Below are positions 46,755-64,000 of a stretch of DNA of 64,000 bases, one piece after another. Position 1 is the stretch's first letter. The number at the start of each line of letters is the position of its first letter. Under the pieces are notes generated by a model, which worked only from the letters and a program-made list of their open reading frames with translations, had not been told where the DNA came from and searched no databases. Origin of the DNA: Vitis vinifera (Eukaryota > Streptophyta > Magnoliopsida > Vitales > Vitaceae); the NCBI RefSeq assembly GCF_030704535.1, contig NC_081812.1, forward strand, positions 20,621,501 through 20,685,500. The letters run 5' to 3'. The position numbers were made by a program, and so were the translations under genes.

Positions 46755-49734
46755 ATGGATGGAGGTGGGTGGTTCGATGGGGATCTCAATGGAGATTTTG
46801 AGGTGAAGAGATGTCTGAGCAGCTTCGTGGATGAAGGTAGGATCGAGAGTCACAGATACTACCTGGCTCGTAGAACTCTTCTGGAGATGTTGAGGGACAG
46901 AGGCTACTCTATTCCTGCCTTAGACATTGATATCTCTCTTCAAGATTTCCGATCCTTCTACAGTCAAAAACCCGATCCTGATCGTCTTCGCATTTCCGCT
47001 GCTCTCCGATCCGATCCCTCCAAGAAGGTATCGCAAGTGCATGTCCTCTTTTCTGATAATAATAATAATAATAATAATAAACTTCAATCCTTTGTTTCTT
47101 GTTATTAGTTTTCCTGGTAACCAAACGAAGCACAGAGCTTATTTTTTTAGCAATAATTTTCGTTGCTACTACTTCGTTAGTAGTTGAGCCGATTTCTTTA
47201 ATCCTGAATAATCTTGGTAATAGGTGTAATTTGTTAATTGTTAGTACCTTTGATGTGCATTAGTGGCTCATTAATCAACGGTTTAAGTTGTCGGAATAAG
47301 TGTTGTTTAACATGATATTTATCTTCAGTTTTAATCTGTTTTTCATCTCTTTGTATCATCATCTGAGTGTTGAAATGAACTGTGGATTCATTTTTTAACA
47401 GGTTAAACTTTTAGGACAATCGATTGCTAAATGTAGTTGATAAGTTATTCATCATTTTAATTGCAGATTCTAGTTATTTTCTGCGGTCCTGATGTAGTGA
47501 AAGTAAATGCAATAAGAAGCATTGCTACTCAGATTGTTAACAAGGACAGCTTAAGTAAGTTGATTCTGGTATTGCAAAATCATATCACAAGCCAAGCTCT
47601 CAAAGCCGTGGATCTCTTTTCATTTCAAGTTGAGAAGTTCCAAGTGAGTTTGGATGTTCTCTTGTGAAGTTTGAAATGCATGCCCTCCTCTTCTTTCTTA
47701 TTGACTTGCAAAATGCTTGGTTTGTAGGTTTGCCCTCTGATAGTGATTCATCGGTTAGCAACATAGAAGAATTCTGAAAGATGCTATTATTGATATGTCT
47801 TGTCCTGCATTATATCCAGTGCTGCCAATCCATCACTGAGATGACATGTTGGCATTATTTCAAAGTTTTTATAGTTTAAGAGATTCAAACCTTTTACTGC
47901 ATGAATATCCATATAAATTCTACCATCCGAGCAAGAACATCACTCTTACTAAAAGGATCAAGTAACATGCATTATTGGACTATGTAACTGGTCAAGGCCA
48001 ACAGGGCAAGAAACTTATATATCCTTTGAGTATTATAAGAGGCAGAGTTTTATTCCAGATGCATCAGTTGTTTTAGCTTTGAAGAAAAACATACAACTCA
48101 GATAGCTTTTGTGTTGTTAGAGGAGTATCAAGGTGGAAGTCACTCTTGGTTGTGCTTAAAGATAAATTTTATAGTGATGTTATCATCCTAAGAAATTGAG
48201 AAGACAATGAATCTGCTTTACTGAAACCATTCAGCTTTGTGGAAGATATATAGCGATAAATTGTCATTCTTGTCATTAGACAGTTCATGAAATAATCTTG
48301 AATCTTGGATGTTTACTGCAATTCAAGGGGGAGGGACTTTTTTTTTTCTTTAGAGATACAACGCTCTCAGACGAGGTTGACTATCCATATCTGTTGATTT
48401 TATATTATGCAGTTTTATCCATATCTGTTGATTTTATATTATGCAAGTAGAGTTGCATAAGTAAAATGTCATATCCAACTGCATCTCTACTTCTTTCTCT
48501 GATAATGAGGATTTGGTAAATGCTTTTCTTGTTTTAGAAATTATTTTATTCTCAATCCAATATTCATGTTATATTTTTGCCTCTAATATTGGATTTGAGA
48601 TACCCACAAATATGCATATGTTTAATCTAATATGAAAGAATTTCAGCCTGTTTTCATAATTGAATACAACTAAAAGGATTGTCATGTCATGCTTCTAACA
48701 CTTTATTGTGCTGTGATCTGTCTTCAGATTACGGACTTGCTTGTTAACATTACAAAACACGTATTAAAGCCAAAGCATCGAGTTCTGACTGATCAAGAGA
48801 AAAATAAGCTGTTAAAGAAGTACAGCTTGAATGAGAAACAGGTTTGTCTTCAAACTTAACAAAAGTTAAGAGGAAGCAAGTATCTGGAAAAACGACTGTC
48901 CATTGCTTTCTTCATTCTTCATTTTGGTGATGGTAGAATTGTGGTCTCTTATATTCCATAGAACCTTTGCTTTTTATACATGGGATGTGTATGGATATAA
49001 ATACAGATCTCTGATTGTCCAACACTATTTGAACCAACTGTGAGGCAATTTTTTTTATTAATGTATAACACCATTAATATGGATAGTCTTTAACTTGACC
49101 TAGAGTCTAATATTACCAATATTTTGCATTCTTAGACTAGTGAATAACTCGTGGAAATTCATCTTTGACGTGACTGGATTCAAATGGTGCAAGCCACCTG
49201 TAGCAAAATTGGTTGGTGGATGTCTAAGAAATATGTTGTATCATAAGGTTTAAAGGATTTGATATACAAAAAGAACTAAAGTACCAATTAAAATAAAATG
49301 AACTAAATTCTGCAAGTTGATGATCACTTGTTTAGTGATGTCTAACCATGTTACATTTTTCTAGTACCAATCATATAACATACAATAAAGTGGAATTGTA
49401 TTCGACATGAGATGCCATGATTGTTATCTTTCTTCCTTTTTTTTTTTGTTCTGTTTTGAGCTCCATATGGCTAGTCAGAAAGGAGCATAAAAGAGATGAA
49501 TAGGTGTAATATATTTTATGCTGCTACATTTTATTTATCAAATTCTTCTTATTCCAGCTTAATTGCACTATGTTAGTTATTATTTATTTTCTTTTCCGTT
49601 TTCTCCAGCTTCCTAGGATGTTACAGCAAGATGCAATTGCACGCTATTATGGACTTGAGAAGGGACAAGTTGTGAAAGTTATTTATAATGGCGAAATTAC
49701 TGGGTCACATGTTACCTACAGGTGTGTCTGGTGA
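46755..49734 (+). CDS. RNA polymerase V subunit 5 (RPB5-type), 4 exons, 229 aa
   Basis: The RPB5-like subunit of plant RNA polymerase V, which makes scaffold transcripts for RNA-directed DNA methylation in the nucleus. Exons 46755-47027, 47467-47643, 48728-48841 and 49609-49734, all with GT-AG introns and phase 0. The N-terminal jaw part reads [20 protein letters not shown] and LQDFRSFY. The C-terminal assembly domain reads [20 protein letters not shown], then [16 protein letters not shown] and [10 protein letters not shown], ending SHVTYRCVW. The residues before SHRYYLARR and the sequence ending fit NRPE5 better than the common NRPB5, which in plants is about 205 aa. The start [10 protein letters not shown] was chosen over an upstream in-frame ATG at 46710 because it suits family length. 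Confidence 0.9.
47057..47080. repeat. (AAT)8 microsatellite in Pol V subunit intron 1
   Basis: Eight uninterrupted AAT units lie about 30 bases downstream of the exon 1 donor. Confidence 0.85.
48382..48446. repeat. 34-bp tandem duplication in Pol V subunit intron 2
   Basis: TATCCATATCTGTTGATTTT and its continuation occur twice in a row with a period of 34 (starts 48382 and 48416). The second unit is slightly shortened at its end. Confidence 0.85.
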
Positions 49735-50800: not shown

Positions 50801-53800
50801 TCACTTCTTCCTGGCCAATGCTGCAGCAATGCCACCAGCAATGAGTCCTACAGCAGTAGCCGTAATGCCTATTCCAATAACACCATCTGCATTCCAACAT
50901 ATGTCAGCATTGGAGCTCATTAGTTCAAAATAGGGGAGAAAAACTCTTAGTTACTGGCTATTACCTTTAGCAATCCGATCTTCAACTGTCTTCTTAAGGG
51001 TCAGAGCCTGCCTAAAATCAGGCGCAATCTACAAAACCAATAACATCTGATATGTGATTCAGAGAAGAGTGGGGAAAAAAAAACATAAGGCAAGAAGACC
51101 CAACATGACTTATAAGTTGTTCAGAAAAAATGTGGTAACTAAATAATGATTTAAGTGTGAAGGTCATATAGTCTTAAAAGCAAATCTGCTGTATCCAAGG
51201 TGATATGCTGCATATCATTGGGACTTTGGTTAATCCATTTCAGCAAATCTAGGACCCTTGTCAGCATAGAGATACAAACTCAACCAGCCAGAACAGAACC
51301 TAGGGAGAGCAGTGAGATAGGCTTTGTGATGGGAATTCACGTCCAAGGAAATTTAGATGATGAATGAGTTCGGTAGTCGCGTAACAGTTCCACAGCCTTA
51401 CAAGGGATGAATCCACCATTAAGTTGTTACAAATAAAACAAGTAACGGGGAAACAGAAGAACTCATAATTTGCTTCCACCCTTTGAAAATTTGACAATAA
51501 ACAAGTTTACCCCTTACACAACATGATACAACTCGTTTATCAATAGAAAAAGCTCCAGGTATTAGGAAAACTAACACAGGCAAAAGCCTGTTTTTTAAAC
51601 ATTTCAGACCGACATTGACAAATAGATAAAGTAAATCAACAGATGCGCATAAAAGGAAGGAAAGAAAGGTGTTATCAACATTGGGTGATAGGAAAACAGG
51701 ACACATAATTTGCTTCCACCTTAAATTTTGATAACAAGCAATTTTACACATTTAAAAAAAGGGTTTAAAAATAGGAAAGATTCCATTTATTAAGTGGACT
51801 ACCACAAGGGAGAGCCTTATTTTAGAACACCTGACGACCAACTTTAACTAATGGACAAATTAATATGAATTAGTGGATGTGCAAAAAGAATCTCATGCTG
51901 GAAACAGAGACCAAACCTCCAAGCACTGTTCCACAAGCTGCCTGCTTTTACCATATTCGCCACTTCTGTAATATCCAACTGCCAGAAGATAAAGTTTCTC
52001 CTTCTTTTGCAATGGGCTGCTGCTACTTGTTAGAGAAGCTGCCAATTAGAATTTCTTAAGTTTCTAACAATGAATGCAGGAGAAAAATAAAAAATAATAA
52101 ACACCACTGCATTCTCTAACTTGTAACATCAAAAGCTCATCAAGCCCACAGAGAGGAGCCAAGAAGAACACCAATAGCAGAAGACAACCTGGTTGCAAGA
52201 TAATTCATCCAAAACAAATAGTAATGATCAACATGGGTGAGCAATCATGCTTTTCACCTATTCCTTTTCTTGGGGATGACTCTGGTATTAAAGTTATTTA
52301 CACGAAGCAACCCATGACTTGGGAAGTAGAATGAAACTTCAGTAAGACCATTTATCATCAGATTTTCCTTTTAATATCCCAAAAGAAAAGGTTAGCTACT
52401 TTGTCAATCCAATTATCCTTCAAGTAGCGACTGGGGAGATTTTTTTGGCAAGAAAAATACCGAGGCAATACAGTGGCTGGATTACTTCCAACGAACAAAA
52501 ACTTCATAAGGCAGCAACATGAATGAGGACAAATTATTCAGAAGTATTGTGTAAAACCAAGGAATTTCACAGAGTAGCCAAGATGAGGATATTGAAATGA
52601 ATGAGTGGAAAATATAGGGTATTAAAGTTTATCCTTTTTTTTCCTTCTTTTCCAAAGTACCAAATTAAAATCACAAAGGAAAATTTCACAAATAGCCTAC
52701 CAGGTGAACGGAAAACCAGATAACCAATCATGATTGTGGGACATTTATAAGGATGAATACAAAAACAGCAAAGTGGTGGACTGATGGAGGATTAAGGCTC
52801 CAAAAGCTTGGGGAGAGAGATAAAATATGGAGGCCCTGGATATAGCTAGCATTGATTATTACAAGTATAATGCTTGACTATTGAAATTATTGCAAGTATA
52901 ATGCTTGACTATTACTTCAATAACTTTTTGGAATTGAATAGAGTTTAACAGCTCTTGAAAGTAGGAGACTGGACCTTAGTCTTGAAACAGGAGGTTTTGA
53001 CAACTCCTGGTTGTAGGGGACTGGGTATTGTAAACCAAAACAATGAATATGGAATCAGTAAAAGAAAAAAGAACTAGGTTGTAAGATTAAAACCTTCAAG
53101 CATTGCGATCCCACGCTGTATATCTTCAGCTTGTCTAGAATGAACAAGAGCCCATGATAACCGCATAATGCATTCACTCTTGTGTTCCTCAGAACCACCA
53201 TTGGCAGCATCCGCCACCTCTTTTTCACAACCCTGCCAGATACACCAAAATTTTCAAACCTTATACAGAAGTTTGAAACAAAAAAATCAATTCTATGTTT
53301 GGATATGGTAGTAGGAAAAGCAATAGGTTGCTTTAACACATTGTGCATCTATTTGGTTAATGATGATGGAAGTAGTAGTAATAATAATAATAATATTTGG
53401 GATACTTATCAAATGGACTAGTAGTAAAAGGTAACCTACGCTAGAGACTCAGAGTGCAACCTCCCCAAACTCATCTTGCTGAATCCCCGCTTCTCATAAA
53501 TTAAACAATTGAATTTAACAAGTATACTAAAAACAAACAAATAAATAAATAACAATAAAAAGCAACCATCAAAGATTTTAAGAACAAAACTACTCTGAAA
53601 AAGTTCATTAAATAAAACCTATTCTTGATAGAAAAGAACATCTAAATAACCTTTAACCCTACCTTTTTGAGTTCGGATATAGAACAATAATACTTATATT
53701 GATGCACTCTTGTGGGGCAAAAGGTCCACTGACAACTAGTTAGCTGGCAAAATTCTAAGCTCCAGTTGGATCATAGAAGGTGTGAGGAAAAGGATGATTA

Positions 53801-60392: not shown

Positions 60393-63300
60393 ATGGAAGC
60401 CAAAACCGGAAAGTTCTTCGAGTCCGTCGGAGCATTCTTAGACGGCGGCGAGGATCAGATCCCGTGGTGCGACCGTGATGTAATCGCTGTGAGTATTTCC
60501 ATTTTTTCAGAGATCTATGATGTCTTTTTCTCCAATGAAATTGCTCTAATGTGTATTTTTTAATCTCTTGGGTTAAGAAGCTTTTGATACTCCCGATCGG
60601 ATCTCATTGAAAGCATAGGAATAGAACTAGAGTTGACTACTGCTTTCAACTGAATTTTGTAATTTGTCTTTGCGAACTTGTTTAATTATTTTTGTGAAAG
60701 GTTCTTTGAAAGATAGAGACTCGATATAGATTTGATGTTGTGTTTAATTATAGTTAAGGTTTTCGATTCTTGTTTGGTGGAAACTAACCTTTATACTCGG
60801 CTTGTATTGTGGAATACTAAGGACGATAGAAGTGGAGTCTCAATTCTCTTCTTAGAAGTAATGGAAGGTGCAGAGGGCAATGAATACGAACTCTTAATTC
60901 TCAATTTACAATCTAAATAAAATTTAAAAATATAGTGAGGTTGAACTTGTTTATTTTTATTTTCTTTCTTGGTTAGCCATGAGACATGAAAAGAAAAATA
61001 TAATGAGAATTATTTGAGATTTTATACATTTTCAAATTCTTAATTTCTCTATATAAAAGGGAAATAAATTGGAGAAATAATAAAGAAAAGAATTATGGAG
61101 CTCAAACTTAATTTTTATTTTACTTTAATTTTTCTTCTCTTTTTTACTTTCAATCATCCTTTTCCTCACACCTTCTATGATCCAACTGGAGCTTAGAATT
61201 TTGCCAGCTAACTAGGTGTCAGTGGACCTTTAGCCTCACAAGAGTGCATCAATATAGGTATTATTGTTCTATATCCGAACTCAAAAAGGTAGGGTTAAAG
61301 GTTACTTAGACGTTCTTTTCAATCAAGAATAGGTTTTATTTAATGAACTTTTTCAGAGTACTTTTTGTTCTTAAAATCTTTGATGGTTGCTTTTTATTTT
61401 TATTTATTTATTTGTTTGTTTGTTTGTTTGTTTTTAGTATACTTGTTAAATTCAATTGTTTAATTTGTGAGAAGTGGGGATTCAGCAAGATGAGTTTGGG
61501 AAGGTTGCACTCTTGAGTCCCTAGCATAGGTTACCTTTTACTACTAGTCCATTTGATAAGTATCCCAAATATTATTATTATTATTACTACTACTACTACT
61601 ACTACTACTACCATCATCATTAACCAAATAGATGCACAATGTGTTAGAGCAACCTATTACTTTTCCTACTACCATATCCAAACATAGAATTGATTTTTTT
61701 GTTTCAAACTTCTGCATAAGGTTTGAAAATTTTGGTGCATTTGGCAGGGTTGTGAAAAAGAGGTGGCAGATGCTGCAAATGGTGGCTCTGAGGAACACAA
61801 GAGTGAATGCATTATGCGGTTATCATGGGCTCTTGTTCATTCTAGACAAGCTGAAGATATACAGCGTGGGATCGCAATGCTTGAAGGTTTTCATCTTACA
61901 ACCTAGTTCTTTTTTCTTTTACTGATTCCATATTCATTGTTTTGGTTTACAATGCCCAGTCCCCTACAACCAGGAGTTGTCAAAACCTCCTGTTTCAAGA
62001 CTAAGGTCCAGTCTCCTACTTTCAAGAGCTGTTAAAGTCTATTCAATTCCAAAAAGTTATTGAAGTAATAGTCAAGCATTATACTTGCAATAATTTCAAT
62101 AGTCAAGCATTATACTTGTAATAATCAATGCTAGCTGTATTCAGGGCCTCCATATTTTTATCTCTCTCCCCAAGCTTTTGGAGCCTTAATCCTCCATCAG
62201 TCCATCACTTTGCTGTTTTTGTATTCATCCTTATACATGTCCCACAATCATGATTGGTTATCTGGTTTTCTGTTCACCTAGTAGGCTATTTATGAAATTT
62301 TCCTTTGTGATTTTAATTTGGTACTTTGGAAAAGAAGGGAAAAAAAGGATAAACTTTAATACCCTATATTTTCCACTCATTCATCTCAATATCCTCGTCT
62401 TGGCTACTCTGTGAAATTCCTTGGTTTTACACAATACTTCTGAATAATTTGTCTTCATTCTTGTTGCTGCCTTATGAAGTTTTTGTTAGTTGGAAGTAAT
62501 CCAGCCACTGTATTGCCTCAGTGTTTTTCTTGCCAAAAAAATCTCCCCAGTCACTACTTGAAGGATAATTGGATCGACAAAGTAGCTAACCTTTTCTTTT
62601 GGGATATTAAAAGGAAAATCTGATGATAAATGGTCTTACTGAAGTTTCATTCTACTCCCAAGTCATGGGTTGCTTTGTGTAAATAACTTTAATACCAGAG
62701 TCATCCCCAAGAAAAGGAATAGGTGAAAAGCATGATTGCTCACCCATGTTGATCATTACTATTTGTTTTGGATGAATTATCTTGCAACCAGGTCGTCTTC
62801 TGCTATTGATGTTCTTCTTGGCTCCTCTCTGTGGGCTTGATGAGCTTTTGATGTTACAAGTTAGAGAATGCAGTGGTGTTTTTTGTTTTTTATTTTTTAT
62901 TTTTCTCCTGCATTCATTGTTAGAAACTTAAGAAATTCTAATTGGCAGCTTCTCTAGCAAGTAGCAGCAGCCCATTGCAAAAGAGGGAGAAACTTTATCT
63001 TCTGGCAGTTGGATATTACAGAAGTGGCGAATATGGTAAAAGCAGGCAGCTTGTGGTAAGTCCATTAGTTAAAGTTGGATATTACAGAAGTGGCGAATTT
63101 GGTCTCTGTTTCCAGCATGAGATTCTTTTTGCACATCCACTAATTCATATTAATTTGTCCATTAGTTAAAGTTGGTCGTCAAAGCTTCTAAAATAAGGCT
63201 CTCCCTTGTGGTAAATCCACTTAATAAATAGAATCTTTCCTATTTTTAAACCATTCTTTTTTAATGTGTAAAATTGCTTGTCATCAAATTTTAAGGTGGA

Positions 63301-64000
63301 AGCAAATTACTTGTCCTGTTTTCCCGTCACTTGCCAATGTTGATAACACCTTTCTTTCCTTCCTTTCATGCGCATCCGTTGATTTACCTTATCTATTTGT
63401 CAATGTCAGTCTCAAATGTTTAAAAAACAGGCTTTTGCCTTGTTAGTTTTCCTAATACCTGGAGCTTTTTCTATTGATAAACGAGTTGTATCATGTTGTG
63501 CAAGGGGTAAACTTGTTTATTGTCAAATTTTCTAAGGGTGGAAGCAAATTATGAGTTGTTCTGTTTCCCTGTTACTTCTTGTTGTAACAACTTAATGGTG
63601 GATTCATCCCTTGTAAGGCTGTGGAACTGTATGTGACTACCAAACTCATTCATCATCTAAATTTTCTTGGACATGAATTCCCATCACAAAGCCTATCTCA
63701 CTGCTCTCCCTAGGTTCTGTTCTGGCTGGTTGAGTTTGTATCTCTATGCTGACAAGGGTCCTAGATTTGCTGAAATGGATTAACCAAAGTCCCAATGATA
63801 TGCAGCATATCACCTTGGATACAGCAGATGTGCATTTAAGACTATATGACCTTGACGCTTAAATCATTATTTAGTTACCACATTTTTTCTGAACAACTTA
63901 ATAAGTCATGTTGGGTCTTCTTGCCTTCTGTTTTTTTTCCCCCACTCTTTTTCGAATCATATATCAGATGTTATTGGTTTTGTAGATTGCGCCTGATTTT
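60393..64000 (+). CDS. FIS1-like copy B, altered exon 3, 3' end outside the window
   Basis: Exons: 60393-60488, 61748-61886, then 62949-63055 if the new donor is used, then exon 4 from 63986, cut by the window end. The N-terminus is MEAKTGKFFESVGAFLDGGE, with changes and a one-residue insertion against copy A. Exon 2 encodes the same residues as copy A. Exon 3 lacks the last five codons (VEQCLE loses EQCLE), which are replaced by inserted sequence that begins with a perfect GTAAGT donor right after GTG (63053-63055). The loss of 15 bases keeps the frame. Without use of that donor, translation reads on to a stop at 63167-63169. It may encode a five-residue-shorter FIS1 with a damaged TPR helix, or be a young pseudogene. 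Confidence 0.75.
61569..61621. repeat. Compound (ATT)n(ACT)n microsatellite in FIS1 copy B intron 1
   Basis: A run of ATT units followed by eight or so ACT/CTA units and then CATCAT. The matching place in copy A (53368-53396) has a much shorter AGT run, so the tract has changed length since the duplication. Confidence 0.8.
63056..63100 (+). other. Templated patch replacing the end of FIS1 copy B exon 3
   Basis: Where copy A has 15 exon bases encoding EQCLE and then a GTTTGG donor, copy B has about 43 different bases. They read GTAAG, then TCCATTAGTTAAAGTTGG, then ATATTACAGAAGTGGCGAAT. The second piece also occurs about 90 bases downstream (around 63159-63176). The third is the exon sequence about 60 bases upstream (around 63010-63033). 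The normal intron resumes at TTTGGTCTCTG near 63098. Confidence 0.85.

Follow-up and report, generated by a model that had tools for sequence, protein, structure and literature searches.

The analysed window comprises 64,000 nucleotides of grapevine contig 8 (20621501-20685500; genome of 495.6 Mb in 21 contigs) and carries two copies of FIS1, here called A and B, which form a head-to-head inverted duplicate pair. Copy A occupies 20672301-20676163 of contig 8. A 600-base DNA search of the genome located FIS1 copies at three places, namely A, B and a paralog on contig 6. The pair belongs to a large head-to-head inverted repeat with a spacer of about 5.5 kb, which carries an Rpb5-like gene in addition to FIS1. 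Similarity between the two arms is piecewise, with B 60278 to 67146 corresponding to A 54804 to 46254, and noncoding A/B sequence differs at 99 of 3163 sites (3.2% after correction). Rpb5 domains adjoin copy A (PF03871 in window 46758-47108 and PF01191 in 49570-49734), and a third open reading frame that was scanned gave no match. The A-side stretch 48133-49072 is without counterpart on the B side and contains an open reading frame (48689-48859) that we take to resemble an Rpb5 exon; either the Rpb5 copy on the B side may be broken, or this stretch may have been gained in A. No Rfam match was found in the window at gathering thresholds.

A grape association study reports FIS1A (Vitvi08g02314), together with RPE5A, at chromosome 8 position 20671485 (PMC11642401). 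In that study of grape texture, the candidacy of FIS1A (mitochondrial fission 1) is argued from tomato FIS1, which is described there as an enzyme of gibberellin catabolism, and overexpression of FIS1A is reported to have had no significant effect on texture (PMC11642401). Tomato FIS1 and grape FIS1A seem to be distinct genes that have the abbreviation in common.

Table 1. Features of the FIS1 pair and of the exon 3/intron 3 border of copy B (window coordinates)
Feature	Position	Strand	Description
FIS1 copy A	54663-50801	-	five exons (93/139/122/64/86 nt) encoding 167 aa; border of exon 3 in the ancestral state
FIS1 copy B	60393-64228, past window end	+	exons of 96/139/107/64/101 nt, 168 aa
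FIS1 copy B, exon 1	60393..60488	+	96 nt; one in-frame codon longer than in A
FIS1 copy B, exon 2	61748..61886	+	139 nt
FIS1 copy B, exon 3	62949..63055	+	107 nt; 122 nt in copy A and contig 6 paralog
FIS1 copy B, exon 4 (start)	63986..64000	+	runs to 64049, outside window
FIS1 copy B, exon 5	64128-64228	+	outside window
Bases of A without equivalent in B	51916..51930	-	14 exon bases and donor G
Patch	63057..63097	+	41 bases, standing for A 51930-51916
Candidate new donor GTAAGT	63056..63061	+	in frame, directly after codon GTG; would span a template join; U1 duplex -9.1 kcal/mol
Intron 3 template	63157..63175	+	equals patch 63060-63078, 19/19, offset +97
Exon 3 template	63007..63032	+	equals patch 63073-63098, 26/26, offset -66
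Possible third template, CTTGTGGTAA	63205..63214	+	equals B 63050-63059, 10/10, offset +155; weakest of the three assignments

The gene models of the two copies are given in Table 1. The 3' end of copy B was read from sequence downstream of the window. The reading frame of B stays open until a stop codon in that sequence, with no earlier stop and no frameshift in the five exons and with GT and AG at every predicted border. Upstream, similarity to A ends about 115 bp before the ATG of B, and none was found farther upstream. Within the region before the ATG, 27 bp between TATA box and ATG in A (54708-54682) are absent from B (versus 60374). The TATA box stands at -71 in A and at -45 in B, from which it follows that the 5' leader of B would be very short.

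The two copies part company at the end of exon 3. Alignment of A and B, combined with exact-match mapping, shows that 15 bases of A are replaced by 41 in B, a net gain of 26. The exchange is flanked on the left by CTTGTGG (B 63050-63056, A 51937-51931) and on the right by sequence common to both (TTTGGTCTC..., B 63098 onward and A 51915 onward). With a slash marking the exon border, copy A reads CAGCTTGTGG AACAGTGCTTGGAG/GTTTGG, encoding VEQCLE before the donor, and copy B reads CAGCTTGTG/GTAAGTCCATTAGTTAAAGTTGGATATTACAGAAGTGGCGAAT, after which TTGGTCTC again matches A. The original prediction had put the loss at 15 exon bases plus the donor and the gain at about 43 bases; the replacement is borne out, and its exact terms are 14 exon bases and the donor G for 41 bases. 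The predicted loss of exactly five codons agrees with the alignment: exon 3 falls from 122 to 107 nt and phase 0 into exon 4 is kept. Intron 3 can be aligned throughout in A and B and is the same intron, with its predicted border moved. As a deletion accompanied by an insert, the scar has the form of a templated insertion (filler DNA).

The direction of the change is given by the contig 6 paralog. This gene has exons of 93/139/122/64/86 nt, as in copy A, and its exon 3 ends at VECCLE/IAPD with the donor GAG/GTCTGA. Since it shares the border of copy A, that border is ancestral and the border of B derived, which rules out copy B as the ancestral form and agrees with the earlier proposal that an ancestral donor had been replaced. 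The extra residues of B in exons 1 and 5 are likewise derived.

Most of the patch can be traced to its surroundings. Two long pieces match exactly, one to intron 3 downstream and one to exon 3 upstream (Table 1), where templates about 90 and about 60 bases away had been predicted. The shared joint between them, proposed as TTGG, is also present and is in full a 6-bp overlap, AGTTGG. The origin of the first bases of the patch is less clear. The GTAA of the new donor is missing from the intron template, which reads ATTTGTCC; it is matched at 63211-63214, within the possible third template, and the donor's GT comes from 63157. Because seven of the ten bases of this third match are the pre-existing exon end, only the three bases TAA are informative. 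These may derive from 63205-63214, or they could be untemplated. If the third template is correctly assigned, a template join runs through the donor GTAAGT. At the place of this third template the intron of present-day B reads GTAAAT and that of A GTAGTC, and the common ancestor of A and B might have had GTAAGT there. The pieces are all from the same strand and lie within about 160 bp. Microhomology at the joins amounts to 7 bp (CTTGTGG), 6 bp (AGTTGG) and, at the return, 1 bp (T); the GTAA/GTCC join has none in present-day sequence.

The similarity of the patch to its flanks is not due to chance. Its longest match within 300 bases on either side is 25 bases, whereas 500 base shuffles gave 7.8 on average and at most 12, and the three other non-microsatellite insertions of at least 17 bp found between A and B (27, 17 and 91 bp) gave longest matches of 9, 7 and 8, within the range of their own shuffles. 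Insertion of foreign or repeat DNA is ruled out as well, because the 19-mer, with up to one mismatch, occurs at three places in the 495.6-Mb genome (the intron of A, the intron of B and the patch), and so is confined to these two genes. A search for the second junction that allowed up to two mismatches gave a single place. The 19- and 26-bp templates are equally present in copy A, so that the patch may have been copied in trans from A. Its age is loosely bounded: about 45 template bases show no difference, compared with a noncoding A/B divergence of 3.2%, and the patch could be as old as the duplication or of any younger age, the probability of zero differences at full duplication age being about 0.24 by arithmetic.

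Seven bases beyond the intron template lie four adjacent substitutions (63182-63185 versus 51831-51828; GGTG in A, AAGC in B), which possibly belong to the same event as the patch. The GGTG of A creates cag/GTGTTC, the top U1 match of the 420-base exon 3/intron 3 stretch of A (-6.7, out of frame), and this site is absent from B.

The candidate new donor pairs with U1 more strongly than the donor it would replace, as had been predicted (-9.1 kcal/mol for GTG/GTAAGT in B versus -5.5 for GAG/GTTTGG in A). Of this donor, the intron template contains the GT, at 63157, and not the hexamer as a whole. Over the 420 bases that begin with exon 3 of B, no other GT pairs with U1 as well as GTAAGT does, and GT sites scoring -9.1 or better make up 0.9% of the 6265 on both strands of the window; the donor GTTTGG of A, whose position is conserved, ranks only fourth among the GTs of the equivalent 420 bases of A, so that U1 pairing energy alone is no reliable guide. 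Unspliced read-through of the patch reaches a stop at 63167, and A and B share an identical exon 4 acceptor, GGTTTTGTAG. In a crude simulation, in which two random pieces of 10-30 bases from within 200 bases were joined with random cut and return, an in-frame donor of -9.1 or better arose in 15 of 20000 patches (0.075%), and one of -5.5 or better in 9.7%. On these sequence grounds we infer that copy B uses the GTAAGT donor.

The history that is judged likely is that one templated-insertion repair, of the Pol theta end-joining type or resembling synthesis-dependent strand annealing (SDSA), moved the 5' splice site of copy B by 15 bases. The FIS1 segment would first have been duplicated head to head, after which copy B would have been hit by a single break or stalled fork where exon 3 meets intron 3. 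From the upstream 3' end (...CTTGTGG), a few bases would then have been copied at a nearby intronic CTTGTGG, synthesis would have switched to GTCCATTAGTTAAAGTTGG in the intron and back to exon 3 at AGTTGG, and 20 more bases would have been copied before the product was joined to the downstream end, with 15 bases including the donor G lost and 41 gained. By luck the resulting scar would open with GTAAGT right after codon GTG, shifting the 5' splice site upstream by 15 bases with phase 0 kept and yielding a FIS1-like protein that lacks EQCLE.

The same patch may also sit in a decaying pseudogene, with the donor used little or not at all, or the product unfolded, and the strong in-frame donor a coincidence. 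We give this somewhat less than an even chance. The predicted protein offers it several points of support. Copy B lacks EQCLE (residues 114-118 of A), which falls in helix B of the second TPR; the PF07719 match puts these residues at TPR positions 25-29. In the solved FIS1 chain 1pc2_A, which we take to be the human protein, RGLLQ is the counterpart of EQCLE, and B aligns there with a five-residue gap; judged by sequence, the second TPR helix pair is intact in copy A and not in copy B. Both copies possess Fis1_TPR_N and Fis1_TPR_C domains above the curated Pfam cut-offs (PF14852, 44.3 bits in A and 44.0 in B; PF14853, 76.1 in A and 55.9 in B), the Fis1_TPR_C score of B comparing with 80.3 in the contig 6 paralog. 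TPR_2 scores 24.3 bits in A, below the cut-off, and gives no match in B; as the contig 6 paralog reaches only 12.6, this difference argues neither way. The C-terminal tail of B, where a membrane anchor would lie, has its Gly/Ala/Ile-rich stretch, with five extra residues, and three derived changes, A126V, I143T and I145K, affect residues kept in A and the contig 6 paralog, the last two lying in the tail. The short stretch of about 115 bp shared with A before the ATG likewise speaks for decay.

The substitution pattern points the same way. Copies A and B differ at 12 codons, with dN of 0.026-0.029, dS of 0.023-0.032 and dN/dS near 1 (a poorer placement of the exon 5 gap gave dN of 0.031-0.034 and dS of 0.050-0.061), and nothing in the A/B substitutions points to purifying selection. 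With the contig 6 paralog as outgroup, nonsynonymous and synonymous changes were assigned as 6 and 1 to B and 2 and 1 to A, with three unassigned; a first tally of 18 differences (B 7/3, A 3/1, unassigned 4) had included five at residues 152-158 that resulted from poor exon 5 gap placement and are left out here. The ratio near 1, the cut TPR helix and the derived changes in conserved tail residues together suggest that B may be a decaying duplicate, and the biological weight of the finding is lower than the original prediction implied.

Against decay stand the five exons free of stops and frameshifts, the GT and AG at the predicted borders and the pattern of indels. All four coding indels are multiples of three (+3 in exon 1, -15 at the patch, +3 and +12 in exon 5), compared with 4 of 16 noncoding ones in 60393-64000 (Fisher p 0.014; 3 of 3 and p 0.036 with the patch left out). 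The rarity of so strong an in-frame donor among simulated patches also mildly favours filtering by selection. We read these data as indicating that copy B held its frame for some time under little residue constraint.

A second alternative concerns the mechanism: in place of double-strand break end joining it invokes serial replication slippage or, at a fork, template switching of the MMBIR/FoSTeS kind, which the inverted duplicate may have promoted. The short range and common strand of the pieces, the 0-7 bp of microhomology at the joins and the large inverted repeat around the site are all consistent with this, but a scar with 15 bp deleted and 41 bp inserted is just as typical of filler DNA in plants (PMC3289645, PMC10923293), and the replication route is considered rather unlikely. 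A single scar of this kind is compatible with Pol theta-mediated end joining (TMEJ), SDSA or serial replication slippage alike. A further reading, judged improbable, is that one templated repair removed a splice donor and made another, template switching having built GTAAGT, a hexamer found at neither present-day template, in the phase that preserves the frame, and that copy B, with its shortened helix and altered tail, was then kept by selection as a diverged isoform. An assembly or sequencing artefact is very improbable: the patch is known from a single assembly, but the B stretch 60001-72500 contains no N, the second junction has one genomic location, the divergence of A from B is about 3% around the patch, and a local multi-piece chimera preserving both frame and donor would in our judgement be an unusual error.

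The preferred reading, a single templated repair, has precedents in plants. In Arabidopsis, a deletion with an insert copied from the flanks and joined at microhomology is named as a hallmark of end joining by Pol theta (PMC10923293), and in tobacco and Arabidopsis some repair junctions carry filler DNA drawn from a single nearby stretch or from several (PMC3289645). The scar of copy B resembles such filler DNA in its deletion, its insert from nearby sequence and the microhomology at its joins; it differs in being natural, inherited and located in a gene, in its 19- and 26-bp pieces and in having made a candidate splice site (PMC3289645). In intron 1 of wheat VRT-A2b, intron sequence was similarly replaced by units copied from the flanks, a rearrangement ascribed to alternative end joining; there, however, regulation is altered from inside the intron, whereas the copy B patch crosses the exon border and replaces the donor (PMC8364232). 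Outside plants, chimeric repair-mediated duplications in primates also consist of an acceptor built from two donors joined at microhomology, and are ascribed to SDSA (PMC2671141). The two donors lay within 3.5 kb of each other in 5 of 20 cases, but the acceptors in Table 2 of that work include no exon, and its accessible text yielded no replaced splice donor (PMC2671141). Short-range template switching in replication is reported to be widespread in great apes (PMC7954356), and new introns have been proposed to arise, among other ways, through double-strand break repair (PMC3443670).

Intron sliding and near intron pairs in Drosophila provide the other half of the comparison. As proposed for copy B, the border there shifts by a number of bases divisible by three and the intron keeps its place, and the 15-nt shift of copy B is below the 32-nt limit used for those pairs; unlike these, the step in copy B consists of a single patch with visible templates, the 5' border alone would move and coding sequence is lost (PMC2891723). 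Templated repair scars and intron sliding are thus each known. Their combination was not met in the literature searched, and in the accessible parts of the open-licence papers searched no case was met in which a templated repair insert had rebuilt a splice donor.

The scar in copy B is a clear example, found in nature, of templated repair and, as judged from the sequence, probably represents a one-step shift of a 5' splice site. It has long been asked how an intron border can move by many bases and leave the gene intact, since most of the states in between would disrupt the frame. In the grape genome the state before the change (copy A and the third paralog), the state after it and the templates can all be read together, which makes a one-step route, by a repair scar that brings its own donor, testable. 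For annotation, the case calls for caution, as the likely end of exon 3 in copy B lies five codons short of what homology would lead one to expect. On the improbable reading that copy B was kept by selection as a diverged isoform, repair that copies local pieces of intron would be a one-step way of relocating intron borders, and intronic decoy donors sharing microhomology with an exon end, here CTTGTGGTAA, would be favoured templates.
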